Below, in pieces: positions 4,596-55,400 of a DNA stretch of 64,000 nt; the stretch's first letter is position 1, and each line of letters begins with the position of its first letter. A program made the translations under genes and the position numbers. The DNA comes from Sphaerolaimus hirsutus. Lineage: Eukaryota > Nematoda > Chromadorea > Monhysterida > Sphaerolaimidae. Where the stretch lies: NCBI GenBank assembly GCA_964036195.1, contig OZ038459.1, positions 21,387,206 to 21,451,205 on the forward strand, written 5' to 3'. The notes under the pieces are model-generated. The model saw only the letters and a list, made by a program, of their open reading frames with translations. It was not told the origin of the DNA and searched no databases.

Positions 4596-5269
4596 TAGGG
4601 ATGGCTGAGGTTATTTTCAAAGGTTTTTTTAAAATGAAAAAGGTTTTATTTATTTTTTAAACCCGACCATCAAAACCATTTTTTTTAAACCTTGGCCAAA
4701 AATTTTAGTACTAAGCACTAGGTATTCTGCAAATTTTTGGGTGCAAGCGCGCAATTTCACCTGCACTTTACTATTTGTGGTTCTTTTCATTGGTTTTGAG
4801 ACATTTTTAGTGTGAAAGCTTCCATTTGTTCCGGTTATTGTGTCATAATAAGCCGAGATATGTTAGTGTAGTATATAATATCCAGTCAATGTGCCTTCAT
4901 ATACTTGTACAGTGTGAAAAATAACTGCTAATGAATTAGCCTTCTTTTGTAACCTAATTAAAACACTATTCCATGGCCAACTTCACTTAGTCATGAACAT
5001 TCGACAAAAGCTGATATACGTAATAAGTTGACATATTCAGTACATAACGGATATTCTTGACAGAAATCACCACTTATAATGCTATATCATTACTCTACAG
5101 CCATTCTATGACTATATCTAACATCACAAAGTACTGTCACCAGTCTGATTTACCTGAATATGTTGACTCATGGCCATATCTGGGAGCTTTGAAAGAAAAA
5201 TGGTTTTATTTTAAAATAAAACCCTTTTTTGAAAAAAAATGTTTAAAAAACCTTTTTCGGCCATCCCTA
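4596..5269. mobile_element. TAGGGATGGC hAT-like MITE, nested
   Basis: Ends TAGGGATGGC and GGCCATCCCTA, perfect 8-bp duplication ATACACAT (4588-4595, 5270-5277), 674 bp. The minus- and plus-strand ORFs within are not genes. Confidence 0.85.
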
Positions 5270-5644
5270 ATACACATGCATATATGGTAGACAGTGGTGT
5301 GAATGGCAATGCCAGGCAGCCCATTGCGCAGTGCCTAAATGAATCTATAGCATTGTTTTGGATGCCAATTTAATCAAATGTTTCAGACATCTATTGTTTT
5401 TGGTGTTTTGGGTCATTTTGTGAAATATCAGGAAAAAAACTCCCTGAAAACCAATTTTTAGGCCAAAATCCCGATCCTGAAAAAAATCCAATCCCGATCC
5501 TGATCTTGAAAGCCCAATCCCGATCCCGAAATTTTAGAAACATCCCGATCCCGATCCCGAAACCCCAATCCCGATCCCGATCCCAAAATTTCAAAAAGCC
5601 AATCCCGATCCCAATCCCAAAAAGTCAATCCCGTTTGAACCCTA

Positions 5645-8158: not shown

Positions 8159-8367
8159 AAGTGTCACTTGTTGAATTGTTTGAAGTTTCAATTTTTTTAA
8201 AGTTTGAAGTTTGTTTCAATCCCAGAGCTGTAAAATGTCAAGCCGGAAAACTCGCTCTCATTTCCACGTTTTAACGTGACACTTTCACCAAAACCCTCCC
8301 GATTTTCTGACGCCATTGCCCCCCAAACGAGAGGGAGCACTCTCCCCCCCACCAAAAAAATTGACAG

Positions 8368-8446: not shown

Positions 8447-11400
8447 GTGCCAGTCCCAGACCCTGTAAAATGTCAAATGTCATGCAAAGTGTCAAAAGTA
8501 GGGATGGCCGAAAAAGTTTTTTTTTCAACGACAAGGTTTTTTATAAAAACGTTGTTTTTTTCAACTACTGTTTTATTTAAAAATGAAACCGTTTGTTTTC
8601 AAAAGCTCCCAGATATGGTCATGAGTCAACAAATACAGGTAAATCAGACAGGTGACAGTACTATGGCTATAGTGTCATGGGATAGCATTATAAGTGGTGA
8701 TTTCTGTCAAAACTGTCTGTTTTTGTCGACTTATTACAGATATCTCTTTTTGTTGAACATTCATGACTTCAAGTGAAGTTGGGTATGGAAACGTGCTTAA
8801 ATAAGGATATAAGAGCAGGCTAACACATTGGCAGTGGTGTTTCACACTGCACAAGTATGTGGGGGCACATTTGGTGTATATAACATACTATACTAGCACA
8901 TCGTGGCTTATTATGACAAATAGCATAAACAAATGAAAGCTTTTACACTAAAAATGCATCAAAACCAATGAAAACCACCATGGTAAAGTGGTGAAATTGC
9001 GCACTTGCGCGCAAAAAAAATTGCAAAATACCTAGTGCTTAGTCCAAAAAAATTTGACCAAGGTTTAAAAAAAAGCGGTTTCGATGGTTGGGTTTATTTC
9101 AATAAAACGTTGTTTTTTTTAAAAAACCTTTGAAAAAAACCTTGGCATCCCTGGTCAAAAGTCATGGAAAATGCCCTGGAAAAAGGCAAGAGTTTACATG
9201 ACTTTGAATACTTTGCATGACATTTTACAGGGTTTGAGACTGCTCCCAGGGAGTATTTGAGTGCGTTTTTGCTGGCTGCGGGGGAACTGGGAAAAGTTAG
9301 GGATGAATTTAGGGCCAAGGGCTTGCAGCAGAGAAGACAGGAGATGGAGGTGCGCTGGGTTTTTTCGCTTTTTCTCTTTTTTGGTGGATGTATTCCGGCG
9401 CCAGTCCCGAAAGCTGCGTTTGAAGTGTAAAATTTCGGAATAATGCTGTATAGTGTAGAATTTGATGTGACCAGTGAAGCGAATACTTTGCCGGACAGTT
9501 TACGACGCGCTTGAAAGTTTATCTGACTTTTTACATGGTGGGGGACTGGTCCCGATATTTATTAGTGCTTCACTTCACCGAGTGTCGAGAAATATTTTTT
9601 GAAAAAGTCGACACTTCGCAGCTTTCACCGCCATTTTACAACCATCTATAAACTAATATTTATCTAGTATTTATAACCGAAATATTTATCTTGTCACTTG
9701 ACAAAGTCCGGGATAAGTTATCGACTGAATACACCTAGTTTTGGTGCATTAAATGCCGTACCTCTAGGGTTCAAACGGGACTGACTTTTCGGGATCGGGA
9801 TTCATTTTTTGAGTTTTTGGGATCGGGATTGGGGTTTCGGGATCGGGATCGGGACTGCTAAATTCCGGAATTTCACGGGATCCGGGATCGGGATCCCGTT
9901 TGAACCCTACGTACCTCTGTATTATTCTCACTCAAAATATAAATCTGAATTCTATATTCACAGGCGGCTGCCTCGAAAAACGCAAAACAGTCTACAGAAA
10001 ATCTAGAATCTATACGCAACGACGCTAAGAACAAAATCGGGAAAATACATCGAGAATTGGACCAACTATTTGCAACAGAAAAACGCAATGATTTAGACAT
10101 TAAGTACAAAAGATTTTGCCAAACCAGGTGTCAATTCCGAAAGTGAAGAAGTAAAAAAAGATTTTATAAGTGAGGGGTAAAATGGCGGTTAAAAATTCAA
10201 CAGCGGAGTAAAATGAGAAGTAAATATTTTTCTTCTTACTTCTAAAACCTTTTTTTTTCTCCACTTGTGGAATTGACCCCAGGGCCACCCTTGCTTATGC
10301 GAAATTCTTGGCCAAAATCGAAAATATCGACGATAATTTGAGGAAAACTGAATTATCGCAATTTAATCAACCTTTCAATGATTTGATTGAGCTGAAGGCT
10401 GAGTTAAAAGATACACAATGCAAAATTATTTTGGAATATTTAGATAACGTCATTGGTGTTTGGAGGACCCATGCTTCAGACCAGTATTTGGCAGCTATCC
10501 AAAAACTACTGGTGAGTTTCACAGATTCCCCCAAGCCTGTCAAATACCATGCGAAATGTCAAAAGTGATGTAAAATTCCCTGGAATTTTTTTCTATATTG
10601 TTACTTGACACTTGACAGTTTTCATGACATTTTACAGGATCGGGCTCGTGTAGTGTATTGATTTTTGCTGTGTCGTTTTTGGATCTTAAATAAAAAAATA
10701 TTCTTAAACGCAGGAGAAAATCAACTGGCCATTGGAACAAGAGAGTGCCATCAAGGCAAGCGCTGCTGACATAGATCAGCTGGCAGAATTGATGATAAAC
10801 TTCTATCTGCTGCACGCTGATCAAGTTCACATGTTTGTCCCTTTCTTTGTACCACCCGCAGCTATTTATCAAACTTTTTGGACCTTTGCCAATGTCACCA
10901 ACATTATGGGTGTGGGCGTAAGAGTCGCCCAGCGATCCAGCTAGACGGGTTTCGTTAAGGTTTCTTTTTTAATTTAGCAATTGATCATTGTTCTGATTTG
11001 CAATTCAATAACTTGGTCAGGTGCCAACTTCGTAAGTGGGGAAGTAAATACCGCAAATCTTCGAATAAGACCCCCCTCGAATAACTCCCCCCCTTGAATA
11101 ACTCCTCCCCTTGAATAACTCCCCCCTGTTGGCGAGGTGAGGAAAAAATAACTCCCCCCCTTGAATAACTCCCCCCTCCTGAATGTGTATGAAAAGGATA
11201 CAATACAAAATACATAGGAATACTAGCCAACGACAGCGACAGCAGATAAATACATTATGTGTATGCAGTGTATACACATCTTTCTGTTGTTGTGAACGGT
11301 TTAATACCTGAAAAACATGAGTTGACAGACTGCATCTGCAATGATTTGAGTCCAAGTTTCCTGGGAAAAAAATAACCCCCCCCCCCTCGAATAAGTCCCC

Positions 11401-14400
11401 CCCCCCTTGAATAATTCCCCCATCAAAAACATCTGACGAAAAAATAACTCCCCTGGGGTCTTATTCGAGGATTTAGGGTAGTAACGATTTTAGAAGGGAG
11501 AATTTTTAAGAAAAGTAAAGTTAGAAATGAAATGGCAAGTAAAAAGTTAAAAGAAAAGTAAATTTAGAAGTGATTGTGAGATGCTCGAGCTTCGAAAATT
11601 TTCGTAATTCGAGATTAAAAAGACGATATATCGGCCCAACCCTAGGTACCATAACTTTTTCCATATACCGTTTGACGCCAAGTAATTTAAGCAGCCAACT
11701 ATTTACGACATAATCATTTTCCAGTGTTCCCGATTCCAAACACTCTGAAGCAACAACAAGTGGTGCACATTTCACGCTGGAAGGATCAACACCTGAAAAA
11801 TTACCTGTAGACATTCTAGTGGATACATTGGTGGAACCCATGAAACAGAGATTCCATTTTCACTTTTATGGTGAGAGGAGCACAAATCAGGTGCCACTCC
11901 CAGACCCTGCAAAATGCCCTGTAATATGGCGAATGTCATGCAAAGTGTCAATGTCATGTAAAATGTCCTTTTAAATGTCAAATGTCATGCATGCAAAGTG
12001 TCAAAAGTCATGTAAAATGTCCTGTAAAATGTAAAACGTCCAGTAAAAAGATTGACATTTTCCAGGACATTTTACAAGACTTTTCACACTATTCATGACA
12101 TTTGGCTATTTACAGCCCATTTTACAGGGTCTGGGAGTGTCCCCAGATTGACAAGCCGCAATGGTTCTATGGGCAGATTGTACATTGGTTGAGGGTTCAT
12201 GCAAAGTTTTTGGAGTCCCAAGTACTGCCAAAATTGATCGCCAGGTTTGGAAGGATGATCATTGTTGATGTTTTTCGAAACACTTTTTTTTTTTTTTTAT
12301 CATGCCCTGTTTGGGACCGACACTTAAATTTCAAGGGTTTGGTATGGTTTTTCGGGTACTATAGATGATTGTTTCCGGATATTTTTATATGGTTCTTAAC
12401 AAATTTTATGTGACAGTTTACACTTTAAACTGATATATTAAAGTTTCAAAACTGGGTGCATATCTATTCGCTCGCTAGCCTTTTGTTCCGTTCTGTGTAA
12501 ATTGATAAATTTTTTTTACATCAAGTCGACTTTATAAAGGCCACCAATCATTGTGCACGTCCAAATATTGTTTTAATTTATGTTGTAAATATTTGCTTCT
12601 TACTTCAGGGGGTGCCACTGGCCGCTGGTTGACAAAATCTCCATGAATTTGTGCGGTTTGGCACGCGAAAAATTGGAGTCTGTTTTGAAAGAAGAAGACA
12701 TTCTTGGCAGCACCGAGGGTTTGACCCACCTGATTGACGAGACCGTGGCGTTTGAAATGGAAATCGCTCAAGGTTTGAAGGAGTTTTGATGTGGCAGTTT
12801 TGGCTCACCACGCAAAACGTTCCCAACTTTTGGTGATGAAGTGGCTTGTTTTTGTGATTAACCAGTCCTTCCCCAGATTTTCACTGAAAAAATCAGTAAT
12901 CCATCCGAGCGCAAAATTTCAAAATTGATTTATCAAATTCAAAGCTGATTATTATCGTAAATATGATCGTATACTATCGTTGTTATTCTTATAGTGTCCC
13001 ATAAACACAATTCGACGATGAAAAACTGGTATAGTCGGCGGTCATCACACTTTGCATGGAGACCTACCATAACCCATCTGAATAATCAACCAAAAATTAT
13101 ACGATTTTTTCATCATAATATTTCGTTTTTACTATGGAAAATTATTTACAAAATTTATCACATGATTTTACTCAGCAACTTATGGTAGGATTCTGCTCAA
13201 AGTGTGCGCTCTACTATGTATAGCCCCTGATTCAGTCAACCCACCAAAACACCCTCACATACCCCCCCCCCAGCATTGAACCTGCCAGCAACGCCACCAA
13301 GTGACCTGTCAGCTGGCTGCGTGGACATACTCGCCTCCAACCCGGTGCGCCTGAGCGGCTGGTTGCAGCTGGAGCGCGCCGCTGGCAGCCACACTGCGGG
13401 TGCCAGTCCCAGACCCTGTGATATGACCTGGAAAATGTCTGGTGTCATGCGAAGGGTTTAAAGTCATGGAAAATGCCCTGTAAGATTTCATGCAGCGTCT
13501 AAAGTAATATAATATAATATGTCCTGGAAAATGTGAACTTTTCTTTCATTTTACCGATCATTTGACATTATTTTTCATGTCTTTTGACACTGCATGCCAT
13601 TTTACATGACTTTTGACGCTTGCATGACATTATATATTTTACAGGTCATTTTACGTGGTTTGGGAGTGGCCTCAGATGTGGCCTTGGCTGCACAAAATCA
13701 CACCGCTGCGGCACTAAGTGACCATAGTCTTGGCGTGGTGCCAGGCGCCTTTGAGGATAGATATGATGTTAAGGGATTGGATCCGTTTAAGGTATCGGAA
13801 CCTGTGCCGGTACTAATCTAAACCCGCTAGCGATCTAAACCCGGCACCCATCTAGATCTGAAAACTGCACTGGCGCGGGCATGTACAAAATGTCAGCCAG
13901 CCGGTGTCAGCTAGCGTCCATTACTTGTGTGCGCCGCTCGGCGGCGTGCAGTCGCGCAGTGCACAATACACAACGTATGCAGCTGCGTGGGGGTGTAGAT
14001 GAGTAGCGGGTAGATCTAGATGAGTGCTGGGTTTACATGTGTACCGAGCTTACTTTCTAGAAAACAGTGAGTTGTCAATGTAGGTAATATCGTCGCAGGT
14101 GCCCCGGTGCGCGGACGACTTTCTGCTCGGCGTGCAGCTGGTACCAGTCCCAGACCCTGTACAATGTCAAATGTCATGCAAAGTGTCAAAAGTCATGTAA
14201 AATGCCCTGCAAAATGGCAACTCGGTTGCTATTTTGCAGGGCATTTTACATGACTTTGACACTTTGCTTGACATTTGACATTTTACAGGGTCTGGGACTG
14301 CCCCCTGGTCGCCGAGCGGTGCGCCCTGCTCTCCGCCGCCGAGCACAAAGTACAATTTCTTAGCGTACAATTGGAACTTCTCGACGACTTTCGATTGAGA

Positions 14401-21933: not shown

Positions 21934-24900
21934 GTATTTACGTTTACTCTCAAATACGTGTAGAACTGCATACAGAGTAAATACTCGTGGGTACACTACT
22001 TTAATTGTACCAGTGCCCACTGTACGCGTACTTTTTCAGTACTGGGTACCCTGGGTTGGGTGTTTAAGAAAATTCAAATATGGACACAAAAAGCGAGAAG
22101 TGTTAATTTACCTACTGCATGCTTAAGTCATACTGTTGATGTACCTACTGTCACTGTCCTTAAGCACCGATGTACCCAAAAAATGCTCCAGTTTATGCTC
22201 CAGTGACCAAAAATACACTATTTACTCAAAAATACTATAAAAAAAACATGAAAAAAGGTTTTACGCAATTTTCTCCAAGTACTGAGTAAAAACAAAGTAT
22301 TTTATCCAGGTATTTTCTGAGCATGGGTATAATGGAAGTATTAAGCAGTACGCTTACTTTTGAAAAAGTTCAGTACCTCAAACAACTCAGGTTTCCTGCT
22401 CAGCTCAAACCGCTGCCGCTCAGCGAACTGATGGCTCGCTTTTCAATGAAATAAACCATACTTGAATATCTCATCACATGTCACTTGAATAAAGAAGAAA
22501 TAATAAAAAAAGAATTCCGCCCAGATAAATGTAACGGGTCAGGCCTATAACGCATGTAGACCCATTACGCAAGTAGACCCATTACACATGTAGACCCATT
22601 ATAGACACATTATACCCGCAGGGGTAAGAAAGGGGGCGGGTAACCCCACCCAAAACCGCCCAGCTATCTATCTACACAAGAGGCAAATTTTTTTGCTTAC
22701 TTTCCCCTGAACAGCCCCCCCCCTGCAAATTGCCTAACTATCTAGCTATCTGGAGCGCTTTTCTGCAATTTTACCCTAATTTTCACCCAAAGTCACCAAT
22801 TTTCATAATTTTTTATAGATTCACACCTTTAAAATCACTAGGTCATGTGTTTTATTGCGTATTTTCAGCATGCCGGGTATAGTTAAATGCGCACCGGTTA
22901 TACATGCGTGATGGGTTTACATGCGTAATGGCACAGGGCCAAATATAACTAGCGAGAGTATTTCATTCTACTTTGGAAGTGTGCCGCTGCGACAAAATAA
23001 AATAGTAATGTAGAATAAATCAGTGAATAAAAGTGAATACGCGCGGCGGCACTTTGGTTTGCTGGTCTCGTTTTATTTCATGAAATGCACTGCGGAAACG
23101 CGGCGCTCGAGTGCGGTGCACTACTTTCTGCGTGGATTGCGCCTTGGCATTTTGCGTTTGGAAGTCGACCCGGGGGCAGTACCGGACCCTGTTAAGGGCC
23201 CTGTAAAATGTAAAATGTCATGAAAAGTGTCAAAAGTCATGGAAAATGGCCTGCGAAATGGCAAACGTACGTGCATTTTACATTTACTGGGCATTTTCCA
23301 TGACATTTGACATTTTACAGGGCTTTTTACAGTGTCTGGGAGTGGCACCCGAATAACCGAAAATGCATGCGAAAATTGATTTTGCTTTGAACCAAGGCGG
23401 TCTGGATTTTTTCAGTGAATAGAGCTTTGTTGATTGAAGTTCGGCTTTTGTGATATGTTAAGTTACAAATTCCGAACGTACTTCAAAGTTGCCTGACTAG
23501 TTATGTATTTAGAAGCGACAAGCTCCATGGCGCTCTTTGGTCCCGGTGCCATTTTCATGCTCCGCTTGGTGCTAACACCCATGAAAAGCGCCATGGCGCC
23601 AGCGTCTTGGCGGCTTTTATCACTGAACCTGACAACCAGAGGCGTGGACAATAAAAACAAGTCGTAAAATATAGCATTGGCCCTGCGCACACTAGTTTTC
23701 ACACGAAATTTCGAAAATTCATAAATAAGCTTTGAACGTGTTTGAGTTTTCCACAATGAGCCATTTTTTTATCTCCGTCAACTGTAGTTGACGGCCACCT
23801 CATTGAAGAAAGCTCAAATGCGTTCTAAGCTGATTTATGAGTTTTCGAAATTTCGTGTGAAAACTAGTGTGCGCAGGACGAATAAGTGGTTAGTCAAGCA
23901 TTTAGGTACTTTAATTTTGAAATAAACTTGGCATAAATATAACTTATCACCTTACACATTTCCTACTTTTGCCACTTTTTTGACTGCACTTTTGAAATTG
24001 GCACCATTTCGGGTCGGATTCCGAACGCTACACCGGACATGTACAACTCCGCACAGAAAGTTGTCCCTATTTTTGCCCCACATCTCACACCTCGTCTAAT
24101 ACTGAAACTTTCTTATTATATTTCGCACTTTATGACAATCCAATTATTTTTGATTCGCTTGAAAGCTTTGAAATTGACTCATGTTGGATGTTTTCTTGGT
24201 AGAAGGGTGGGATAGATTTTGTGAAATGTGATATTCATACACCGGATGCCCCCCCCCCGTTTCAGGAATTCTTCATGAGAAAAAGCTCTGGGTAAGTTCT
24301 AAAAAGCCATTTAAATACTGTTTACCGCGACTATCCCATGTAAATAAAGGCATTTTATATCTACAATGTCTTATCTAATTCATCGATATTAAGAAAATTC
24401 TGTCTAATAATGGAAAACAGAAGAAATCTCTATACAATTCGGGCATTTTGCATGGCCAGGTGCCACTCACAGACCCTGTAAAATACGCTGCAAAATGTCA
24501 AATGTCATGCAAAGTGTCAAGATCATATGAAGTGCCATTTGAAATGGCAAACTAGTTTACTATGTTCCAGGGTATTTTACATGACATTATACACTTTGCA
24601 TGACATTTGGCATTTTAGATGACATTTTCACAGGGTCTTGGAGTGGTCCCAGATGCAAACGCTATGGATTGGCATGTCCAATTATTTTGTGGATTTTATT
24701 AATCATTGCCACTGCGGCGTTAAGTGCACTTTTGTACTGCTTCGAAGCTGAAAGTTGGGCGGCAGACATCCAACGAAAAAGATATTTGAAATCGCACATC
24801 ACAGATACATTTGTGTCCAACATTGCAGCTAAGTGAGTTAATGTGTCTCAGACAGTGGTGGAAAAGGACTTTGGCGCCAAGCGCCATGACGCTTTTAGCT

Positions 24901-27900
24901 CTGGCGCTAGCGCCAAGAGTCAGCGCCAGATTTTTTTCCTGGCGCCAAAGAAAAATAGCACCAAGCACAATGTTGCATTTCCTGGATGTGGCGCGAAACG
25001 CCAATGGCGTCACAGCAAAATAGCGCCAGGCACTTTTTTCTTCGGTGTAATTTTATTTGCTCTCTAATATTTACGTACTTTCCATTATGGAGTAGGTTAC
25101 CTCAAGTGTTGTTGTTGGCGCCATTTTGGCGCCTGGTGCCATTGTTTCTGTCGCCCTTTTGAGCCTATCGCCAGTTTTTTCAAATGGCCCTGTGGCGCTT
25201 TTTTTGCCCTATGGCGCCATGGGCCATTGTCGCCGGGCACGTTACCATCACTAGTTCCTGCTAGTGATGGAAAAGCGCCAGGCGCCAAAATGGCGCCAAT
25301 TTCACGAGTGCTGAAGTCGAAAAAACATTTGAGAAGTGTGAAGTAAAAGTCAAAAGCAAAGTAAAATGAGAAGCGGAAAGATAACTTAGCTTTTTACTTC
25401 TCACTTCTCTTCCCACTCATTTTACTTCTAAATTGTTTTTTTCTTCTCCACTTGCGGAATTGACCCTGATTAAACCCCAACTCTTATTGCAGGCTATTCA
25501 ACAATACAAAGACATACATATTTATCGATATCGACACTTCAGTCTATGCAAATGGGATGATATTCACGCAAACTGACAGACTGTACGACCACATTTTGCA
25601 CTCTCTGGAGCCTGTGAACGTATTTGATTGGAACTTTGCCAACTGCTCACTTTATGTTTTAAGTAGAACATTCATGATTGGGATCGAAGGGGTCAGTTTT
25701 GATGCGAAAATTGTGTTGTTTTTTTTTGGGAATGCGTGAATATTAGGACCTTATTCTGAAATGAATTTCTGAATTCTGGATTCAGAATTTTTTTTTGAAT
25801 TCTTAGGCTAAAATATTCACAAGCTGTTTTTTTATGTAAAACAATTATCATCATCAGACCGTAAAGTATGCGTCAAAATTACTTATGTCTTGATCGATAA
25901 GTGTAAGCAGGATACGTATGCACACACTTTCACAAAAAAGGGAAAGGCGGAGTCGTTTACTAGAAGAAGATAATGTTTTTCCTGAAATGTTTTTTTTCTA
26001 TTTTGGGACAATTTTTATTTTATTTATAGTGAAATGTAATGTAATGTAAAAAAGTTGGTCCTAAAAAATAAAAATGGCCCTTTTCTATTCGAAGAAATAT
26101 GGTAAGCTAACCAAACTTTTTACAGGTAAAACCTGGTTCGTTGAATGGCCAATGCGTGGACATAATGATTAGTCTGTTGGCAGTGCCCCTGTACTGTGTC
26201 GCAGTGGTCATGACTAGCAGAACATTGCACCTGGTGCCAATCCCAGACCCTGTAAATAGCCCTGTAAAATGTCAAATGTCATGCAAAGTGTCAAAAGTCA
26301 TGGAAAATGCCCTGCAAAATGGCAACTCGGTTGCCATTTTGCAGGGCATTTTCCATGACTTTTGACACTGCATGACATTTGACATTTTACAGAACTTTTT
26401 ACAGGGTCTGGGATTGCCCCCTGGTGGCTGGGATGAAATTGAGACTGCAGTATGTTCACTTGTATGCACCTGGGGCCAGTCCCAAGCCCTGTAAAGTGTA
26501 AAGTCAGGGTCTAATGTCATGAAAAATGCAAAGGATTTGTCAATTGTCATGCAAAGTGTCAAAAGTCTTGTAAAACAATATTGTTTTTTGATAACATTTT
26601 GGATAGCATTTGACAATAGACTTTACAGGGTGTGGGACTGCCCCCAGATACCGCAAAGTGCCCTGTAAAATGTAAACAAATTACTGGTCATGATTCTGAC
26701 ATTTTTCATCACATTTAAGATGACTGTTGACTCTTTACATGACATTTTACATTTTACAGGATTTTAGAGCATGACTGTTGACACTTCAGAGCCATCAACA
26801 AAAAAGCACATAAAATTTTACACTCCCTTATTTACAGGCGCCGCCTGTTCCCGGCGATAATTTCGTGCATCCTGCTTATAGGAATATTTATTATCACTAC
26901 CTACATCCCATACAACTACCGTAAACCACCAGAATACATAGACCATTTGAATCCTAACTCAGATTTGTCAAATTTCATTTCCATGGCACTTCAAGTGCTC
27001 ACAACAAGTGCCTCAATTAATAGGTCACTGGTAATACAAAATGAACTGTGGAGTGTTCTAACTATTGTTGCATGTGCTCCATTTGTAGCGGTACTTTTTG
27101 CCTTCCTGGTTCGGTTGGCTATTTGGCCTGAGGTATGTTCTTTTTCAACTGATTTTTAAGAGTCAAAACCACTCAATTTTTCTGAATAAAATGTTGCAAC
27201 AATGTTGCATTGGAAATATTTCAGAATGTTCCAAATTGAACATTTGACGTGTATTTTTTGGTATCCACTGACTGCACATTTGACAAATAAAATTTACCAT
27301 ATTCCATCTGAATAACAAACAGTTCTACTTTTGCTCATGACACCAACATTACTGTCAGTGTATTTTGCACATAGTTGTTAAAACGTATTTACATTTACTG
27401 TGCTGACTAGTGATGGAAAAGCGCCATGGCGCTGGCGCCTGGCGCTAGCGCCAAAGCAAAAAGCGCCATGGCGCTTTTGGCGCTTGGCGCTAAAACGCTC
27501 TGGCGCCATTGGCGCTTGGCGCCGGGGTCTGAGAAAGCGCCATGGCGCTTTTGGCGCTTGGCGCCATTTTCTGGTGGCGCTATTGGCGCCTGGCGCCGGC
27601 ATTTTAAATAGCGCCAAAAAAGCGCCAACCATGATTATAAAATTCTTATGATTCAATGAAAACACAAGCCAGTTGATAAATTTTGAGCTTAACTTAATAA
27701 ATATTGATAAATATAAGGGTGTAAGGGGACATTTATAGTAATTAAATATTGATTATGTAACATTTGGGGCAAATGAATATACCGTATTTCCTCGATATAA
27801 ATACCACCAGGGGGTTTATTTTTTCAGAGTGCAAATTTTGATGGGGGTATTTTGAGCGAGGGGTTTATTATTTCGCCAGGAATTTTCATAAAGTATTATG

Positions 27901-30900: not shown

Positions 30901-33714
30901 TCCGGCAAAATTTCAGCAAGTTTTTTCTGTTTCCGGCATAATTGCAGCAAATTTTTCCGTTTCCGTTTCCGTTTTCCGGCCATTCATTTTTCTGTTTTCC
31001 GTTTTCCGGCAAGTGCAAAATTTTTTCCATTTCCGTTTCCGTTTTCCGGCAAGTTCAAAAAATTTTCCATTTCCGTTTCCGTTTTCCGCCAAAAAGTTTT
31101 TGTTGACACCCTAGTTAGAACGCTATACGTTAACTTATTGACGACAATGATTATTTTTCATCTTTCATACAAAAATCGCATGCTTTATATCGTCATTGGC
31201 ACGCTTCAAACGTGTGACATAAATGAGTGCGAGGGCAGAGTATCATGTTCACCTAGTATATTTACTCCAGAGTTGTGCAAATACTGGTATTTTTGGAAAA
31301 CGTAAACGTAAACGTAAATACCTTTTCCAAATCAAAAGTATAAATACTAAAACGTAAGGTATTTTTAAAATACCAAGGAATACGTAAAAAGAAACGTAAA
31401 CGTAAATTTTTTACTTTTATTTTTTACTTTTACCATTATTTTCAGCTTTAGATGGGTAAATCGCTCCATCTGCACCACTTTCTGTTTTAGTGTGGCGAAA
31501 TCCAACTACGCTGGTGATTCTGGGGGAGTCCCAGGGGCCAGTTCCGCAAGTAGACAAGTTAAGAGTTAAAAGTTAAGAGTTGAGTTAAAGGTTAAAAGTT
31601 GAGTCAAAAGTTGAGTTAAAAGTTAAGAGTTGAGTTAAAGGTTAAAAGTTGAGTCAAAAGTTGAGTTAAAAGTTAAGAGTTGAGTTAAAGGTTAAAAGTT
31701 GAGTCAAAAGTTGAGTTAAAAGTTAAGAGTTGAGTTAAAGGTTAAAAGTTAAGTCAAAAGTTGAGTTAAAGGTTAAAAGTTGAGTCAAAAGTTGAGTTAA
31801 ATGTTAAGAGTTGAGTTAAAGGTTAAAAGATGAGTTAAAAGTTGATTTAAAAGACAAATGGGTCATTCGTTGCAGAAGCGCGATACGCTGATCTTCAATC
31901 ATATTTTGTCCCCACACAGCCATTTCGAAACAACGTTCGGCGATTTTTTCTTTTTTTAGCGATAATTTTTTTGGATACGTTATTTTCAAATGATGTGCAT
32001 ACAACATTGGCACCATGCCAGCGAACAGCCGTATCGATACCAATTTCATATTTTTATTTTTTTATATTTTTTTACCAGCATTTTCCACTTGTCTCTTAAC
32101 TCTCAACTCTTAACTCAACTCTTAACTCAACTTTTAACTCTTAACTCAACTTTTAACCTTTAACTCAACTCTTAACCTTTAACTCAACCTTTAACTCAAC
32201 TCTTAACATTTAACTCAACTTTTAACTTTTCTCTTAAATTTTCACTTTTCTCTTAAACTTTAACTTTTCTCTTAAACTTTAACTTTACTCTTAACTCGCC
32301 ATTTGTCTTTTTACTCAACTCTTAACTTTTAACTCTTAACTTGTCCACTTGCGGAACCGGCACCTGACCCTGTAAAATGCCTTGAAAATGTCAAATGGCA
32401 TGCAAAGTGTCTTAAGTCATGCAAAATGCCCTGGAAGGTGGCAAATCTTTGCCATTTTGCTGGGCATTTTACATAAGTTTTGACATTTGCATGAAATTTT
32501 ACATTTTACAGGGCATCTTACATTCTGGGATTCGCACCAGAGCTTGCACTCGCCCTGCCAGTTTCAAAACGTGTGCTACTCACAGTTGTTGCAAGCGTTC
32601 AGAATTCATCACAAAAATTTTTATAAAGACAAGGTTCCACAAACAAACAAAAAGTGTTCAGCATTTGAACACATTTATGAATATGTACCCAGTATTCCAT
32701 GTGTAAGTGCAAGGGTGCAGTCACTTTTTATGTTTATGTGAAATGTGTTTATGCAAAAACACAAGAATATTGTTGGCTGCAGGTGGTGTGGCCCATTTGA
32801 ACATGTGCACTTGTGAACGATCACAAGTTTTTTTTTTACGTTTTCCCTAGTACCCGGGTATTTTGGTGAGGAAAACGTAATAAAACGTAATGGTATTTTT
32901 GGAAAACGTAAACGTAAACGTAAGTATAAATACCTGAATAACCGGGTATTTCGGGTAAACGTAAATACGTTTTTCCAACTCTGATTTACTCACAACAGTC
33001 CCACATCTTGTAAAATGTCAAATGTCATGCAAAGTGTTTAAAGTAATGTAAAATGCTCTGGAAAATCCTAAACTTCCTTCGCCATTTGCAGGTCATTTTA
33101 CATGACTTTAAACACTTTGCATGACATTGACTTACAGGGTCTGGAAGTGGCCACTGGGCAGCAGCTGTTTGAAAGCCAAAAGGTGTCAAAAGTCATGTAA
33201 AATGCCCTGTAAAATAACAAATGTCATGCAAGGTGTTAAAACTCATGTAAAGCGGCAATGTGACGCAAAGTGTCAAAAGTCATGTAAAATGCCCTGTAAT
33301 GTGACAAATGTCATGAAAAGTGTCAAAAGTCTACATGTACAAAAATGTACATGTAAAATAATCTGTGAAGTAAAATACCAACTGTCAAAAGTCAAAGTGT
33401 CAAAAGTCATTTTTTTAATTGAAGTCGCCATTTTACAGGGTCTGGGAGTAGCGTGGCACCTGGATTTTATCTTTTGTTCAGATGTGCTTTTTACAAATTT
33501 ACTTTTAAGTTGAAGATATTTATGTTTTTTTCAATGCTCTCAGATTCGCCACTATGATGAACAAAGTTCTCCAGTTGACCAGGGACAAAATTTAATTAGC
33601 CTGACCCGTTTTCTCGGACAGAAGATTAATTGGCTTGTCTCTTATTTCTTTGATTGGCTTGTCTCTTACTCTAATTCTAATTCTACAATACCGCCAGAAA
33701 AAAACCTAACATGA
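21800..33714 (+). CDS. Unrecognised membrane protein with four predicted TM segments, whole gene
   Basis: I do not recognise the family. Probable exons: 21800-21933, about 23015-23170 (unsure), 24421-24459, 24653-24832, 25493-25691, 26126-26233, 26424-26472, 26648-26657, 26838-27132, 30170-30430, 32541-32702, about 33162-33182, 33544-33714. From 24421 to 32702 all phases agree. The predicted product has a Pro/Leu-rich N-terminus; TM1 (PIILWILLIIATAALSALLY); a ~95-residue loop with an NNT glycosylation sequon; TM2 (MISLLAVPLYCVAVVM); a short basic loop; TM3 (AIISCILLIGIFIITTYI); a ~45-residue loop; TM4 (VLTIVACAPFVAVLFAFLV); and a long polar C-terminal tail. Four-span topology with two external loops resembles tetraspanin- or claudin-like folds, but I see no CCG or claudin signature. 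At least three of its introns are introners. Confidence 0.65.
21934..23014. repeat. Intron region with CATGTAGACCC element
   Basis: About 22540-22945 has ends GGCCTATAACGCATGTAGAC and GTTTACATGCGTAATGGCAC. Upstream, 21935-22440 repeats GTACTGGGTA/AAGTACTGAGTAAAA words. Confidence 0.55.
23015..23170 (+). CDS. Membrane-protein gene, possible exon 2
   Basis: An open frame of good coding character (YARRHFGLLVSFYFMKCTAE, then HYFLRGLRLGILRLEVD) follows a possible AATCAG acceptor. It ends at a diverged introner (23171-23350). The exact splice sites and phase to neighbours are not settled, so membership of this gene is inferred from position only. Confidence 0.4.
23171..23350. mobile_element. Introner A-5, diverged, in the membrane-protein gene
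   Basis: Left GGGGGCAGTACCGGACCCTG, right CAGTGTCTGGGAGTGGCACC, with arms TAAAATGTCATGAAAAGTG and their inverse. CCCG flanks both sides. No GT at the left end, so it may not act alone as an intron here. Confidence 0.65.
23351..24420. repeat. Intron region with an ACTAGTTTTCACACG element
   Basis: About 23685-23880: GCGCACACTAGTTTTCACAC and GTGTGAAAACTAGTGTGCGC are inverted ends. Sisters at 58201-58440 and 59930-60181. Before it, 23520-23640 holds GCGCCATGGCGCC words. Confidence 0.65.
24421..24459 (+). CDS. Membrane-protein gene, 39-nt exon
   Basis: Encodes RNLYTIRAFCMA plus a split Arg codon, ending CCAG directly before an introner. It joins the TM1 exon in phase. The acceptor (GGAAAACAG) has a weak pyrimidine tract. 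Confidence 0.5.
24460..24652. mobile_element. Introner A-6, complete
   Basis: 193 bp from GTGCCACTCACAGACCCTG to CAGGGTCTTGGAGTGGTCC + CAG, with CCAG on both sides. It splits an Arg codon in frame (CMAR / CKRYG). Confidence 0.8.
24653..24832 (+). CDS. Membrane-protein gene, TM1 exon
   Basis: Begins right after the introner end GTCCCAG. It encodes CKRYGLA, then the hydrophobic PIILWILLIIATAALSALLY, then CFEAESWAADIQRKRY and more. Donor GTGAGT, phase 2. Confidence 0.75.
24833..25492. repeat. Membrane-protein intron with GCGCC palindromes
   Basis: Holds GGCGCTAGCGCC/GGCGCCATTTTGGCGCC arrays (24855-25030 and 25115-25300), including CCATCACTAG..CTAGTGATGG ends of the TAGTGATGG family, then the family-B copy. 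Confidence 0.6.
25310..25470. repeat. Family-B element inside a membrane-protein intron
   Basis: AAGTGTGAAGTAAAAGTC arms and right end CTCCACTTGCGGAATTGACC. The left terminus is weak. Unlike B-1 it is internal to a larger intron (24833-25492). Confidence 0.6.
25493..25691 (+). CDS. Membrane-protein gene, extracellular-loop exon
   Basis: Encodes KLFNNTKTYIFIDIDTSVY and DRLYDHILHSLEPVNVFDW through GIEG. NNT is a potential N-glycosylation site. Acceptor ATTGCAG, donor GTCAGT, phase 0. Confidence 0.75.
25692..26125. other. Membrane-protein intron, no clear element
   Basis: AT-rich, with GAATTC/GAAATTC direct repeats near 25760-25800. A fragment like TTCTATTCGAAGAAATATGG at 26085 resembles the end of the ACCGTATTTCTTC family. 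Confidence 0.5.
26126..26233 (+). CDS. Membrane-protein gene, TM2 exon
   Basis: Encodes VKPGSLNGQCVDIMISLLAV and PLYCVAVVMTSRTLHL. Its last codon CTG is duplicated at the far side of the following introner. Confidence 0.75.
26234..26423. mobile_element. Introner A-7, complete, with CTG target copies
   Basis: 190 bp, strong palindrome from GTGCCAATCCCAGACCCTG to CAGGGTCTGGGATTGCCCC + CTG. Second case of a GT..TG apparent intron. Exact removal keeps RTLHLVAGMK in frame. Confidence 0.85.
26424..26472 (+). CDS. Membrane-protein gene, 49-nt exon between two introners
   Basis: Encodes VAGMKLRLQYVHLYAP plus one base, a basic cytoplasmic loop between TM2 and TM3. Both flanking introns are members of introner family A. 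Confidence 0.65.
26473..26647. mobile_element. Introner A-8 with GG at the 5' splice position
   Basis: 175 bp from GGGCCAGTCCCAAGCCCTG to CAGGGTGTGGGACTGCCCC + CAG. The expected GT is GG here. Frame logic with the 10-nt exon supports this boundary. Confidence 0.65.
26648..26657 (+). CDS. 10-nt micro-exon between two introners
   Basis: ATACCGCAAA sits between the CCCCCAG end of one introner and the GTGCCCTG start of the next. With it, the flanking exons join as APDTAKRRLF with no frame break; without it, the phases do not match. Confidence 0.6.
26658..26837. mobile_element. Introner A-9, partly degenerate
   Basis: Starts GTGCCCTGTAAAATGTAAAC. CATGACATTTTACATTTTAC marks the inverse arm, and the acceptor TTTACAG lies further downstream. 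It forms the intron after the 10-nt exon. Confidence 0.65.
26838..27132 (+). CDS. Membrane-protein gene, TM3-TM4 exon
   Basis: Encodes RRLFPAIISCILLIGIFII, a soluble loop (PYNYRKPPEYIDHLNP and more) and TM4 LTIVACAPFVAVLFAFLVRL ending IWPE. Acceptor TTTACAG, donor GTATGT, phase 0. It is the longest and most convincing exon of this gene. Confidence 0.8.
27133..30169. repeat. Long membrane-protein intron with three element families
   Basis: Contains the TAGTGATGG element 27408-28329, an AT-rich stretch to 28990, a TACGTTTAC/GTAAACG-rich stretch 29100-29600, and a C-rich-arm element 29692-30098. Confidence 0.65.
27408..28329. mobile_element. TAGTGATGG hAT-like element with GCGCCATGGCGC arms
   Basis: 922 bp. 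Ends TAGTGATGGAAAAGCGCCA and GGCGCTTTTTCCATCACTA, perfect 8-bp duplication GTGCTGAC (27400-27407, 28330-28337). The arms are dense GGCGCTTTTGGCGCTTGGCG repeats, and a C-rich-arm end is nested at 27780-27890. Confidence 0.85.
30170..30430 (+). CDS. Membrane-protein gene, polar cytoplasmic exon
   Basis: Encodes 87 hydrophilic residues rich in Asn, Ser, Asp and Glu (AGNSHDFNQKNSATNDGK, ELYYRNQDEIALDGDSSM, DERTWLAE). Acceptor TTTTCAG, donor GTGAGT, both phase 0. Confidence 0.75.
30552..31113. mobile_element. TAGGGTGTCAA foldback element, intact
   Basis: Ends TAGGGTGTCAACTTTCCG and TTGTTGACACCCTA, perfect 8-bp duplication GTTAGAAC (30544-30551, 31114-31121). Interior made of CCGTTTCCGTTTTCCGGC words. 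Confidence 0.85.
31534..32360. mobile_element. Family-B foldback with GAGTTGAGTTAAAGGTTAAA arrays
   Basis: Ends GGGCCAGTTCCGCAAGTAGA and GTCCACTTGCGGAACCGGCA. Inverted minisatellite arms 31555-31850 and 32095-32345 flank a unique 240-bp core carrying the minus-strand ORF. Confidence 0.75.
31816..32049 (-). other. Small coding-like ORF in the core of a family-B foldback element
   Basis: ATG at 32049 (minus) opens MKLVSIRLFAGMVPMLYAHH, then KITYPKKLSLKKEKIAERCF and EMAVWGQNMIEDQRIALLQR. The frame then runs into minisatellite. The first ~65 residues have coding-like composition. It lies antisense in an intron of the membrane-protein gene, between inverted GTTAAGAGTTGAG arrays. A captured exon or small gene is possible; not recognised. 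Confidence 0.35.
32361..32540. mobile_element. Introner A-10 at the 3' end of a long intron
   Basis: Left CACCTGACCCTGTAAAATGC, arms TGTCAAATGGCATGCAAAG, right CATCTTACATTCTGGGATTC + GCACCAG. It abuts the family-B foldback at 31534-32360 and provides the acceptor of the exon at 32541. Confidence 0.7.
32541..32702 (+). CDS. Membrane-protein gene, Cys/His-containing exon
   Basis: Begins at the right end of an introner (CGCACCAG). It encodes SLHSPCQFQNVCYSQLLQAF and KKCSAFEHIYEYVPSIPC. Donor GTAAGT, phase 0. Confidence 0.7.
33000..33161. mobile_element. Introner A-11, diverged
   Basis: Left CAGTCCCACATCTTGTAAAATG region, right CTTACAGGGTCTGGAAGTGG, with GTCATG/CATGAC arms. It lies between the exon at 32541 and the putative 21-nt exon. 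Confidence 0.6.
33162..33182 (+). CDS. Membrane-protein gene, possible micro-exon (QLFESQK)
   Basis: Twenty-one in-phase bases between an introner right end with GGGCAG and a donor GTGTCA. An 18-nt version from 33165 is also possible. Without it the flanking exons still join in phase, so its inclusion is uncertain. Confidence 0.35.
33183..33543. mobile_element. Introner A-12, internally repeated
   Basis: Starts GTGTCAAAAGTCATGTAAAATG. It contains three or more copies of the GTCAAAAGTCATGTAAAATGC block and ends its palindromic part at CATTTTACAGGGTCTGGGAG (33452), then ordinary sequence to CTCTCAG. Confidence 0.6.
33544..33714 (+). CDS. Membrane-protein gene, terminal exon
   Basis: Encodes IRHYDEQSSPVDQGQNLISL, then LGQKINWLVSYFFDWLVSYS and an Asn/Ser tail ending PPEKNLT before TGA. 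The repeated WLVSY could be an amphipathic or membrane-associated segment. Acceptor CTCTCAG. Confidence 0.7.
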   Translation: MRHYDEQSSPVDQGQNLISLTRFLGQKINWLVSYFFDWLVSYSNSNSTIPPEKNLT

Positions 33715-35765: not shown

Positions 35766-37115
35766 ACACCTTCCCGGACAAGTTCACCGCCCATTTTTTT
35801 ATTTCACTTCGAATGCAATATCTCCGTCCATGGGGGTGTTATAAGGCTGAAACTTTGTATATATTACGTTGTAATACCCCCTTACTCCCCAACAATGGGG
35901 GGAGGTGCGGCGACTCACTACAGGGTGGGTCGCCCTATATGCAAAAAAATTTTGTGGCGTTTTTGGTGTCCCAAGCAAGTTCACCACCCACTTGATTAGC
36001 TACACTTTGAAGGCTATATCTCCAGCTGTGAGGGCGGTAGAAAGCTGAAATTTGGGGGATGTCTTGCCAACAATCCCCCTCACAATACACCAGTGGGGCG
36101 GCTGCCGACGACCCACTAAAGCATGGGTCACTGCATATAAATTTGATAATTGGTTTAAGAACAACGCAAGTGTCCCAAACAAGTTCGCTACCCAACTGCA
36201 TTAAAAAAATGTTGTGAGAACATACCTGATATAAACTTGAATCAGATATGAACCCTAGTTCTGCTCATTAATTTTTTTTCAGTAGGGCACCCACCCTGTC
36301 CCATAAACAGCAGATTGAAAATTTCACTTTAAACCAATTTTTGGATCACACTTAAAAAGTTGGTTTACAAAGTTCACCAGGGGAGGGTCTAACGTTCAAA
36401 GTTATGTAAACAACATAACCTCTAAAATGCTTCCATAAGGAAATTTATTTGGGGTGAATGAAAAAGTGAAAATTTTGTCAAATTTTCTTCCTGAAATGAC
36501 ATCATTTTGACATCATAGAATTCACCCCAAGTAAATTTCCTTATGGAAGCATTTTAAAGGTTATGTTGTTGACATAACTTTGAACCTTAGATCCTCCCCT
36601 ACTGAAAAAAATTTTGTTGGCTGAAATAGTGTTCCAACCCGATTCATTTTTATATTAGGTATGTTGTTGCAACAATTTTTTATGCAGTTGGGTGATGAAC
36701 TTGCTTTGGGACACTTGGGCTGTTTTTAGAAAATGATTAACTTTATATGCAGTGACCCATGCTTTAGTGGGTCGTTGGCAGCCGCCCCACTGGTGGATCG
36801 TGAAGGGGGTTGTTGGCAAGACATCCCCCAAATTTCAGCTTTATACTGCCATCACAGCTGGAGATATGGCTCTCGTAGTGTAGCCAATCAAGTGGGTGGT
36901 GAACTTGTTTGGGACACCAAAAACGCCAAAAAAATTGTTGCATATAGGGCAACCCACCCTGTGGTGAGTCGCCGCACCTCCCCCATTGTTGGGGAGTAGA
37001 GGGGTCTTACAACTTTATATATACAAAGTTACAGCTTTATAACACCCCCATGGACGGAGATATTGCATTCGAAGTGAAATAAAAAAATGGGTGGTGAACT
37101 TGTCCGGGAAGGTGT
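35766..37115. repeat. 1.35-kb palindrome
   Basis: ACACCTTCCCGGACAAGTTC on the left and its inverse on the right. Inverted copies of CGAATGCAATATCTCCGTCC and CACCTCCCCCATTGTTGG follow in mirror order, with the centre near 36480. It could form a very long hairpin. Confidence 0.8.
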
Positions 37116-37121
37116 TTATTA

Positions 37122-37993
37122 GAGGTGCCGTTCTATTGGAGGCTGCTCTTCTATTTTGTTTTCCGAATTTTTTATCATTCTTCATATGAACGTAGTGTTT
37201 TGGATGAAACATCAACAACATTTTGATATCAGATGAGCATCAATTAAAACAACACCAATTGCGAAAACAACCTTGAATCACAATTATGAACACTTTGGAT
37301 GTTCTCACACCACCCATTTTTCTAATATTTTTGTGTTCGAGCACTTTTCCAGTGTAATTTTTACCTGCCGTTCTATAGGAGGTGCCATTCTATTGGAGGC
37401 TGCCATTCTATTCTTTTCATGAGTGCAAAAATGTGCCAAAATCTGCCGTTCTGTTCGAGGTGCGGTCCTAATGGAGGTATGCCGTCCTATTATGCTATGA
37501 TTACAGCTCGGGCGTAAAATTCCAGCGTAAAATTCCATCGCAAAATCGATTATAAAAAAGTGCATGACGATACAGGTCTGCAATTTTTCATGGAGAATAT
37601 GTTTATCAATACCTTCATTGTGTCCCAGAGTCATCATCCGCAGTCACTGCCATTTGATTGTGGAAATTCAAAAATTTCTATTTTACGTTGGAATTTTACG
37701 CGAGCTGAAGAAAAATCAATTCTACGCTATGTCATTGCATGCAATCACCTGGCGTAGAATTGAGTTTTCTTCAGCTGGCGTAAAATTGCAGCGTAAAATC
37801 GAAATTTTTGAATTTTCAGAATCAAATAGAAGTGACCGTGGACGATGACCCTTGGTCACAATGAAGGTATTGATGAACATATTCTCCATGAAAAATTGCA
37901 GACCTGTATCAACATCCACTTTCATGTAATCAATTTTGCGATGGAATTTTACGCTGGAATTTTACGCCCGAGCTGTAATCGCTCCATTACAAG
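37122..37993. repeat. ACCGTATTTCTTC-family remnant with a nested 480-bp palindrome
   Basis: GCCGTTCTATTGGAGG words and right end ACAAGAAATACGGTA. Nested 37499-37980 has ends GATTACAGCTCGGGCGTAAA and TTTACGCCCGAGCTGTAATC and long inverted arms. Confidence 0.7.
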
Positions 37994-52471: not shown

Positions 52472-55400
52472 GGTCGAAAGCGGCGGGCGCGATCCAGTGA
52501 GACGCCCCCCGCCCATAGGGGATTTTGAGGGTAGCATTTTGGGGGGGGGGGGGGGTCGGCCCCCGAGCACGTGCTAATAACTAAGGAATGGCTTGGTGGA
52601 AAATGTTGAAATTTTGATATATTATAGTTTCAGGTCGGGGCTAATTACAAGTCCGAGGAAATTTCGCTACGACCCCCCTGACTGGAGATAGGGTGGGTCT
52701 ATAAAAATGTCGTTTTTGCGAAATTTTTCGGTGTCGCTCAGAACATGTTAACTTTGGACAGCAATAACTCGGTGATTTGTCAACCGATTTTTGTCGTTTA
52801 ACTTTCATAAATATCACAACTGTTTGGAGAGTTCATTTCTGAGGTCAAATCGGTTATATTCAATTGTGTATATATTGATTTGGCCGAATTTCCGGGTGTA
52901 AAATTTCGCGCAAATTTTTTTTTAGACATGCTATCTGATACTCCTGATCGAGAGAAACTCAAAAATAAAAAAATGAGATCGATAGCTCTTTCCAATCAAA
53001 AGTTATGGCACTTCAAACTTTCGCCTTTCATCCACACAAATAACCACATGAAGAACTTCAAAACTCCATATCTGGACCATTTCTTGGCCGATTTTCATCA
53101 ATAAGCACTTAAAATAATTGGAATAACCTGGAAATTTCGTTTTCGTTCTCTATTTATCTATATGTATTTTTATCCTGATAATTACACAGAAGAATTTGCG
53201 TTGCTTGTTGTACGGGAAATCTGATTGAATATATACATAAATAGAAAACAAAAATGAAATGTTCAGGTTATTCCAATCATTTGAAGTGCTCATTGACGAA
53301 AATCGGCCAAGAAATCGTCCAGATATGGAGTTTTGAAGTTGCGTGCATTGTTCTTCATGTGGTTGTGTGGATGGGAGGCGAAAGTTTCAAGTGCTTTAAC
53401 TTTTGATTGGAAAGAGCTATCGATCTCATTTCTGTATTTTTGAGTTTCTCTCGATCAGGAGTATAAGTTAGCATGCTCAAAAAGAATTTTTTGCAAGAAA
53501 TTTTGCATTCCGAAGTTGGGCCAAATCGATATATAAAATATTAAATGTCACTGATTTGACCCAAAAAACGAACTCTCCAAACATTCATGATCATTTTAAA
53601 AGTCAAACGATAAAAATCTGCTGAGAAATGGGCAAGTTATTGAGGTGCAAAGTTTGCGTGTTCTGGGCGACACCCAAATTTTTTCGCAAAAAGTACGTTT
53701 TTATAGACCCACCCTATCTCCAGTCAGGGGTGTCGTAGCGAAATTTCCTCGGACTTGTAATTAGCCCCGACCTGAAACCATAATATATCAAAATTTCAAC
53801 ATTTTCCACCAAGCCATTCCTTAGTTATTAGCACGTGCTCGGGGGCCGACCCCCCCCCCTAAAATGCTACCCTCAAAATCCCCTATGCCCCCGCCCCCAG
53901 TCCCCCCAAGCAGAAGCAACTTGCTAAGTGCCCCGGGGACCCTGAGTGCACCAAAGGTTTGTAGACTAGTGATGGTCAGAGTTTTTTTAATTTTAAAAAC
54001 ACACATCGAAACCCTTTTTTAAACCAGACCGAAAACATTTGCGCTCTGATGGCTGGTCACGTTTGGAGGGGGGGGGGCTCAATTTCAAAACCTTGGTGGA
54101 AACATCGAATGTGTTATACGTAACCGTACTTTCGAAAACCCACCCCGACTATCAGTATTGATTAATTTATCACTAACATCTATGGATCCCAAATCCCGAA
54201 AGGTTTTCTCTTGGGATTTTGCGGTCCTCCTAATTCCGAAACCGTTATCCCGGTCACGATCCGGTTATCTACAAAACGAATCCCGATCCCGAAAAGTCAA
54301 TCCCGTTTAGGGTTGGAAAAAACGTCTTTTTAACTCCGTTTTTTTTTAAAAACAACGTTTAAAAATCTAAAAAACGTTGTTTTTTTCAAGCTCCCAGATA
54401 TGGCTTTATGTCAACATATATATATATAGGTATATCAGACAGGTGACAGTACTTTGTGAAGATTATATATGACCATATAATGGCTGTGGAGCCATGGGAT
54501 AGCATTATAAGTGGTGATTTGTGTCAAAAATGTACATTTTTTGTCGACCTGTTTGTATATCGCCTTATAGTCAAATGTTCGTGACTTCAGGTGTATTTGG
54601 CACGGAATAGTGATCAAACAAGGTTATAAAAGGAGGTTGTTACTTTGGGAGTGAAGTTACACACTGTGGAGGTACATGGAAGCACATTACCTCAATATTA
54701 TATACTACAGCAACATATGACGGCTTATTAGGTAACCCATGGTAGCACATAGAAATGGATGCTTTGATACTAAAAATGCCACAAAACCAATGAAAACGAC
54801 CACCAATGTCAATTTGAGTGTGAAATTGTGCGCTTGCGCGCAGAAATTTTGCAAAATGCCTAGTGCATAGTACAAAAAATTTCGGCCTATGTTTAAAAAA
54901 AACATTTCGGACGCCGTGTTTTAAAAAAAACGTTTAAAAAAACATCGGCCATCCCTATGAATATTTATATTTGCTAACAGAATTTTCTCCAACCAGCTCT
55001 TTGCATCGCAGAGGTGGTCGCGGCGGGCGAGTTGAAGCTCACGGTGGAGCGGGTGCACGAATTGGACAGCGCGCGCGAATATTCCGATCCAGTGGACATT
55101 GGTGGATTGAAATGGTTCGTTGGCACCAGTGGCGTAGCCAGGATTTTTGAGAGGGGTACGGATAGTTGTGGGAGCCATGGGAAGTGGGTAGCACATCCAT
55201 TGAGGAAATCGGGGGTAGCATTTTAGGGGGGGTTCCGCCAGAGTTTGCATGGTTATAACTCTGCAACCACTTGGCAAAGTTTGTCGAAAATTAAATATAA
55301 TGTGGTTTCATGTCGGGCGGGGCTAACATGAAAATCGAAGGCATCCATTTATGACCCCGCTGACCCAAGATAGACAAATTTTTAGACCTTTTTTGAGTGT

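Follow-up and report, generated by a model that had tools for sequence, protein, structure and literature searches.

The stretch analysed here (the window) is 64 kb of an assembly of 348,482,957 bp in 762 contigs. It contains a RINT1 gene and, as its downstream neighbour, a partly covered gene (gene 2) whose product is an unnamed protein of membrane type. Gene models rest on open frames, borders that look like splice sites, and Pfam matches; the choice of RINT1 exons was guided by the human protein and then checked with Pfam, and the RINT1 start codon is provisional, with the first exon counted from position 8340. The models hold 22 introns, 16 in RINT1 and six in gene 2, of which 20 are GT-AG. 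Ordinary RINT1 introns between 8447 and 17060 have loose donors (GTTTGG, GTTGGT, GTGGGT, GTGCGT), which may point to relaxed 5′ splice site recognition in the host. The gene 2 model gave no Pfam match above the cut-off, and the RINT1 model gave no match in a protein database search, with no RINT1 relative found. No match came from a search of solved structures, from Rfam over the whole window at gathering cut-offs, or from viral contigs scanned with two long repeat-end strings, and Pfam found nothing at E 0.05 in the three plus-strand frames of 54.5-63.5 kb.

Element introns in RINT1 and gene 2

In five of the 16 RINT1 introns and two of the six gene 2 introns, a whole inverted-repeat element plus one copy of its target makes up the intron. 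We compared the first and last 50 nt of each intron as an inverted repeat, with 500 shuffles each. Seven of the 22 introns carried a border repeat that no shuffle equalled (0/500 for each), with offsets of 2-4 nt at the 5′ border and 5-7 nt at the 3′ border. The 3′ offset was always larger by 3, because the target copy sits at the intron end. In the remaining 15 introns the border repeat was equalled by 8 to 500 of the 500 shuffles; the 8/500 case, intron 12773-13273, had offsets of 3 and 16. The seven element introns are as follows.

8447-9249, plus strand: RINT1 intron, family A (GTGCC...GCTCC) and a CAG copy, with a nested palindromic repeat; triplets CAG/CAG, GT-AG; 0/500
10128-10282, plus strand: RINT1 intron, family B (GTGTCAATTCC...GGAATTGACCC) and a CAG copy; 0/500; hairpin z -5.9
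11891-12146, plus strand: RINT1 intron, family A and a CAG copy, GT-AG; 0/500
13400-13675, plus strand: RINT1 intron, family A, left triplet CGG and right triplet CAG, GT-AG; arms 72% identical; 0/500
14141-14307, plus strand: RINT1 intron, family A and a CTG copy, predicted GT-TG; arms 95% identical; 0/500; PF04437 scores given below
24460-24652, plus strand: gene 2 intron, family A and a CAG copy, GT-AG; 0/500
26234-26423, plus strand: gene 2 intron, family A and a CTG copy, predicted GT-TG; arms 97% identical; 0/500

All seven start with GT and five end with AG. At 14141 and 26234 CTG stands on both flanks, so that exact removal of the element yields a GT...TG intron; kept in the message, either copy would bring in a stop and a frameshift. 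The intron at 10128-10282 belongs to another family and follows the same terminal logic as family A. Hairpins were found in all six element introns that were folded (8447-9249 was left out), with z-scores of -5.9 to -25.6 relative to mononucleotide shuffles. The repeat nested in the 8447 intron occupies 8500-9155 and has GTCAAAAGT on both flanks; similar repeats, AGGGATGG...CATCCCT, lie near 4600-5280 and 54310-54970. The nested repeat would be an example of an introner growing into a longer intron.

An earlier note on this DNA had placed introns at 11891-12146, 13400-13675, 14141-14307, 24460-24652 and 26234-26423, and all five intervals proved correct to the base. It had also taken the element ends to coincide with the intron borders, which agrees with the 0/500 result and the constant offset of 3 in all five. 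Its claim that removal restores the protein frame is borne out in RINT1: the model from which each element and one triplet were removed scored 183.8 bits against PF04437 and covered profile positions 4-514 of 514. Its description of similar ends plus a target copy needs a small correction at 13400, where the triplets differ (CGG and CAG). The introns at 8447-9249 and 10128-10282 (the second family), the copies outside exons and the TG ends of 14141-14307 and 26234-26423 had escaped it. The CWG target, the unequal ends with GT at only one of them, and the likely transposon group, described below, also go beyond it.

Ends, targets and copies outside exons

The family core, CAGTCCCAGACCCTG, was found with at most 3 mismatches at 26 places in the window, compared to 0.61 expected, and none of 100 shuffles reached 26. 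The 5′ end of the seven exonic copies reads GTGCC, GTACC or GTGTC. The 3′ end, read outside-in, is GGGGC, GGGAC, GGGTC, GGAGC, GGACC or AGGCC. The two ends of each exonic palindrome thus differ at the second base, T versus G. The CWG triplet was duplicated in 7 of the 12 paired copies in the window.

Five paired copies were placed outside exons. Unequal ends were present in three of them (starting at 23173, 55979 and 31535) and absent in two (26473 and 32992). Since unequal ends also occur in these non-exonic copies, the GT end is a property of the element itself, not of the exon around it. Three of the family A copies outside exons are listed here.

23173-23348, minus strand: family A copy outside the gene models, triplets CCG/CCG, GT end on the minus strand
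26473-26644, plus strand: family A copy within the ordinary GT-AG intron 26450-26837, without a GT end, triplets CTG/CAG
55979-56190, plus strand: family A copy with a GT end in a putative longer intron of a third gene (by eye), triplets CAG/CAG

Six of the 10 full family A copies fall within coding regions (P = 1.2e-5 when judged by length and 2.1e-4 when judged by CWG count), a post hoc comparison to which we give little weight; its coding length, 4,104 bp, includes third-gene exons drawn by eye and gene 2 borders that are approximate to a few bases.

Several further palindromes lie in the window. The copy at 31535-32363 is an 829-bp element with 231-nt arms, family-B-like ends (GGGCC/GTGCC) and flanks of CAG and CTG, and is perhaps a larger relative in the same transposon group. 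Another inverted repeat at 22543-22933 has CAG on each side and ACGCATGTAGACCC-like subrepeats, and possibly represents an additional CWG family. A nearly perfect palindrome without a spacer occupies 37499-37980 (241-nt arms, 89% complementary), and a palindrome with 208-nt arms occupies 35944-36939.

Genome-wide copies and their coding context

The exact 15-bp core occurs 4,676 times in the genome (2,387 + 2,289 on the two strands), while the reversed control occurs 1 + 1 times, and the one recurring palindromic element named by the earlier note is thus well borne out. A sample of 68 loci from one contig was taken around listed exact-core places, with 282,644 bases read; selection by the exact core biases it towards young copies. 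After near-identical loci were collapsed, 81 two-ended copies gave 75 distinct sites; we used the 66 that have exactly one GT end and dropped the other nine. Among the collapsed loci, L014-L017 lie within 50 kb on contig 1 and share one CTG/CTG insertion between near-identical coding-like flanks, with two length classes (285 and 241 bp); the insertion seems to predate the local duplication.

The commonest ends in the sample were GTGCC and, outside-in, GGGGC, and the commonest flanks were CAG or CTG in duplicate. Opposite the GT end, the element started with GGG at 53 of the 66 sites; the GT end itself does not. Identical triplets stood on both sides at 35 of the 66 sites, compared to a mean of 15.6 and a maximum of 26 in 2,000 re-pairings. 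All but three of these 35 were CAG/CAG or CTG/CTG (32 sites, and 3 with other pairs); the triplets were not identical at the other 31. An AG was found 19 nt before the element end in 62 of the 66 copies. At the 21 sites with the exact GT end the triplet was CTG in 7 and CAG in 8, and genome-wide CTG stands directly before the exact GT end 587 times (282 + 305).

The joined flanks were rated with a codon score for which RINT1 and gene 2 were the only training genes, at a threshold passed by 1% of 671 background CWG sites. Forty-two of the 66 sample sites were coding-like. The control set was the 147 CWG sites of the two window genes: 92 passed, 91 of them correctly directed; these are the same genes that trained the score. 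The coding-like fraction bears on the idea that MITEs later settled in introns that already existed, their ends reaching the borders by chance. The family does also occur within ordinary introns, as at 26473 and 55979. Chance placement would nevertheless have to produce repeats reaching both borders of seven introns at a constant offset of 3, which none of the other 15 introns shows, and 42 sites that look coding across both sides once joined. We regard later occupation as improbable.

The coding-like sites have a strong sense bias. Sense scored higher than antisense in 36 of the 42 coding-like sites (P = 1.4e-6), including 12 of 12 CTG/CTG sites and 8 of 9 CAG/CAG sites. This sense bias speaks against DNA-level excision as well as against a symmetric hairpin route. 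Precise excision of Harbinger-type MITEs leaves one target copy, as would be needed if the elements were removed from DNA, in the soma or in transcribed copies, and not from RNA. Excision is orientation-blind, however, and decayed copies such as 13400, with arms 72% identical, should have lost it; we give this route very little credence. Removal by the hairpin itself, without the spliceosome, has been proposed for the nonconventional introns of euglenids and diplonemids (PMC12621601). Here too the ends pair, the hairpins are strong and two of the seven introns lack AG. By contrast with the euglenid type, which has paired ends and no GT-AG, all seven start with GT and five end with AG, and direction matters although the palindrome is nearly symmetric. 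Such self-removal appears unlikely.

Exact removal was also judged by reading frame and by protein domains. Where both flanks looked coding, exact removal preserved the frame in 10 of 10 CTG/CTG, 3 of 6 CAG/CAG and 6 of 13 other sites. Antisense agreement, in the same order, was 5/7, 4/6 and 2/10. The frame test alone is therefore weak, and the case is made by orientation and by the domain scores. One sample locus, L035, is the start of OSCP1, in which a CAG copy and a CTG copy, both predicted introners, lie in conserved exons beside three ordinary GT-AG introns. With both copies removed exactly, residues 17-189 of the protein aligned to positions 1-173 of PF10188 at 207.2 bits; ending the CTG intron at the next AG gave 181.0 bits, and at the AG after that 176.4. 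For the RINT1 CTG copy (14141-14307), PF04437 scored 182.5 with exact removal, 176.1 with the next AG and 172.0 with ten residues read in. A chondroitin-synthase-like (CHGN) exon with a CTG copy (L061) scored 43.4 bits with exact removal versus 39.0; the presence of a CHGN domain suggests that the host is an animal. An NHL repeat split by a CTG copy (L057) scored 15.9 bits, under the Pfam cut-off of 20, and gave no match when shortened. Several other joined sample segments gave no Pfam match.

These results bear most directly on the CTG copies. In the reading that we slightly favour for them, sites with CAG yield GT-AG introns and sites with CTG yield GT-TG introns, each spliced at the WG of the target. 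The competing reading is that the introners are real, but that CTG copies use a neighbouring AG, 19 nt upstream or in the downstream exon, or are young harmful alleles of the one assembled haplotype; we consider this a substantial, though lesser, possibility. The survey of human TG sites, as reported, has none in which TG is the sole acceptor (PMC2374985), and the two CTG copies in the window have the best-kept palindromes, with arm identities of 0.95 and 0.97; four of the remaining exonic copies have 0.70-0.77, and 8447, taken by its outer part, has 0.82. The idea drawn from the window that CTG copies are merely young was dropped, since in the sample they were no younger than CAG copies by median arm identity (0.90, n = 19, versus 0.88, n = 16). 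CTG and CAG occurred at similar frequencies (22 and 16, respectively, of the 72 oriented sample copies), and the sense orientation of every coding-like CTG/CTG site is unexplained for an insertion that is not spliced. Moving the acceptor to the next AG lowers the score by 26 bits for OSCP1, 6 for RINT1 and 4 for CHGN, and taking the AG 19 nt upstream as acceptor would add 19 nt and shift the frame.

Relation to known introners and transposons

Taken together, we believe that the element introns are very probably introners: short non-autonomous MITEs that duplicate a CWG target and are predicted to be removed from RNA at their own ends. The earlier note had proposed an introner family, and this is supported, at the level of sequence and protein homology, by whole elements forming whole introns in unrelated coding sequences, by the inverted repeats and by the duplicated triplet. 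Similarity reaching both borders was found across unrelated genes (the two window genes, OSCP1 and other sample sites), and terminal inverted repeats with a target duplication are the marks of DNA transposition. The survey of Gozashti et al. (2022) reports 548 introner families, with introners in only two animal groups, and its Fig. 2C legend describes a type in which the element provides the 5′ splice site and the target copy the 3′ one (PMC9860276). Our elements resemble the introners described there in that copies are similar to each other up to the splice borders, and in their terminal inverted repeats, target duplications and enrichment in genes; they differ in that the duplication is a CWG triplet and half of the targets supply TG. 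We thus seem to be dealing with an introner family of a known general type, whose target-supplied 3′ end would tolerate TG.

The target and terminus point to a particular transposon group. The NuwaI group of PHIS is described as having a CWG target duplication, termini that are usually GGG, and inverted repeats, and all reports of it come from animals (PMC4482050). In our sample the CWG duplication was present at 32 of 66 sites and the GGG terminus at 53 of 66. In contrast to NuwaI as described there, we see only short non-autonomous copies, and one terminus is GTG. By target and terminus the family appears NuwaI-like. The transposase that mobilises it would be of the NuwaI/PHIS (Harbinger-related) kind, which in autonomous copies is a DDE enzyme accompanied by a Myb/SANT partner. 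Within the open-licence literature, we found no link of introners to PIF Harbinger, nor to NuwaI among the matches listed.

The nearest parallel for the 3′ end comes from the larvacean Fritillaria borealis, where the intron often finishes with a YAY triplet that is also found just ahead of its 5′ border, and from which duplicated U2AF genes have been reported (PMC13326754). The repeated border triplet there supplies a non-AG 3′ end, as CTG would here; there the introns start with AG and end with AC or AT, whereas here they start with GT and end with CAG or CTG. The introner elements of Amoebophrya are described as having inverted repeats, direct repeats of 3-5 nt at the borders and, in many cases, no GT-AG (PMC7789003). 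Their borders are given as highly variable, whereas here one terminus and one target type dominate. Human TG 3′ splice sites are reported as U2-type, always with an AG within 28 nt, and only as alternatives beside AG (PMC2374985). The AG 19 nt upstream in our copies is a likeness to these sites; the difference is that exact protein restoration here would need TG as the main site.

In the mechanism that we envisage, one terminal GGG changed to GTG, by which the element would carry its own 5′ splice site, and the WG of the downstream target copy would serve as the 3′ splice site. The RNA hairpin would join donor to acceptor, with the AG 19 nt inside used for the first splicing step and the terminal WG for the second; this part of the mechanism, hairpin included, is a tentative hypothesis that we think rather doubtful. 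More broadly, we see an even chance that the animal's spliceosome takes TG about as readily as AG for many transposon-made introns, with the hairpin and the internal AG 19 nt upstream defining the intron and joining taking place at the target-supplied WG.

One base change at one end and a borrowed splice site would be a way in which a DNA transposon could make introns, and, if this is true, introners would be tied to a named transposon group. The CWG target would also set A against T at the 3′ splice site in an experiment made by nature, with matched AG and TG introns in many genes, and the need for AG in the last splicing step would become directly testable.
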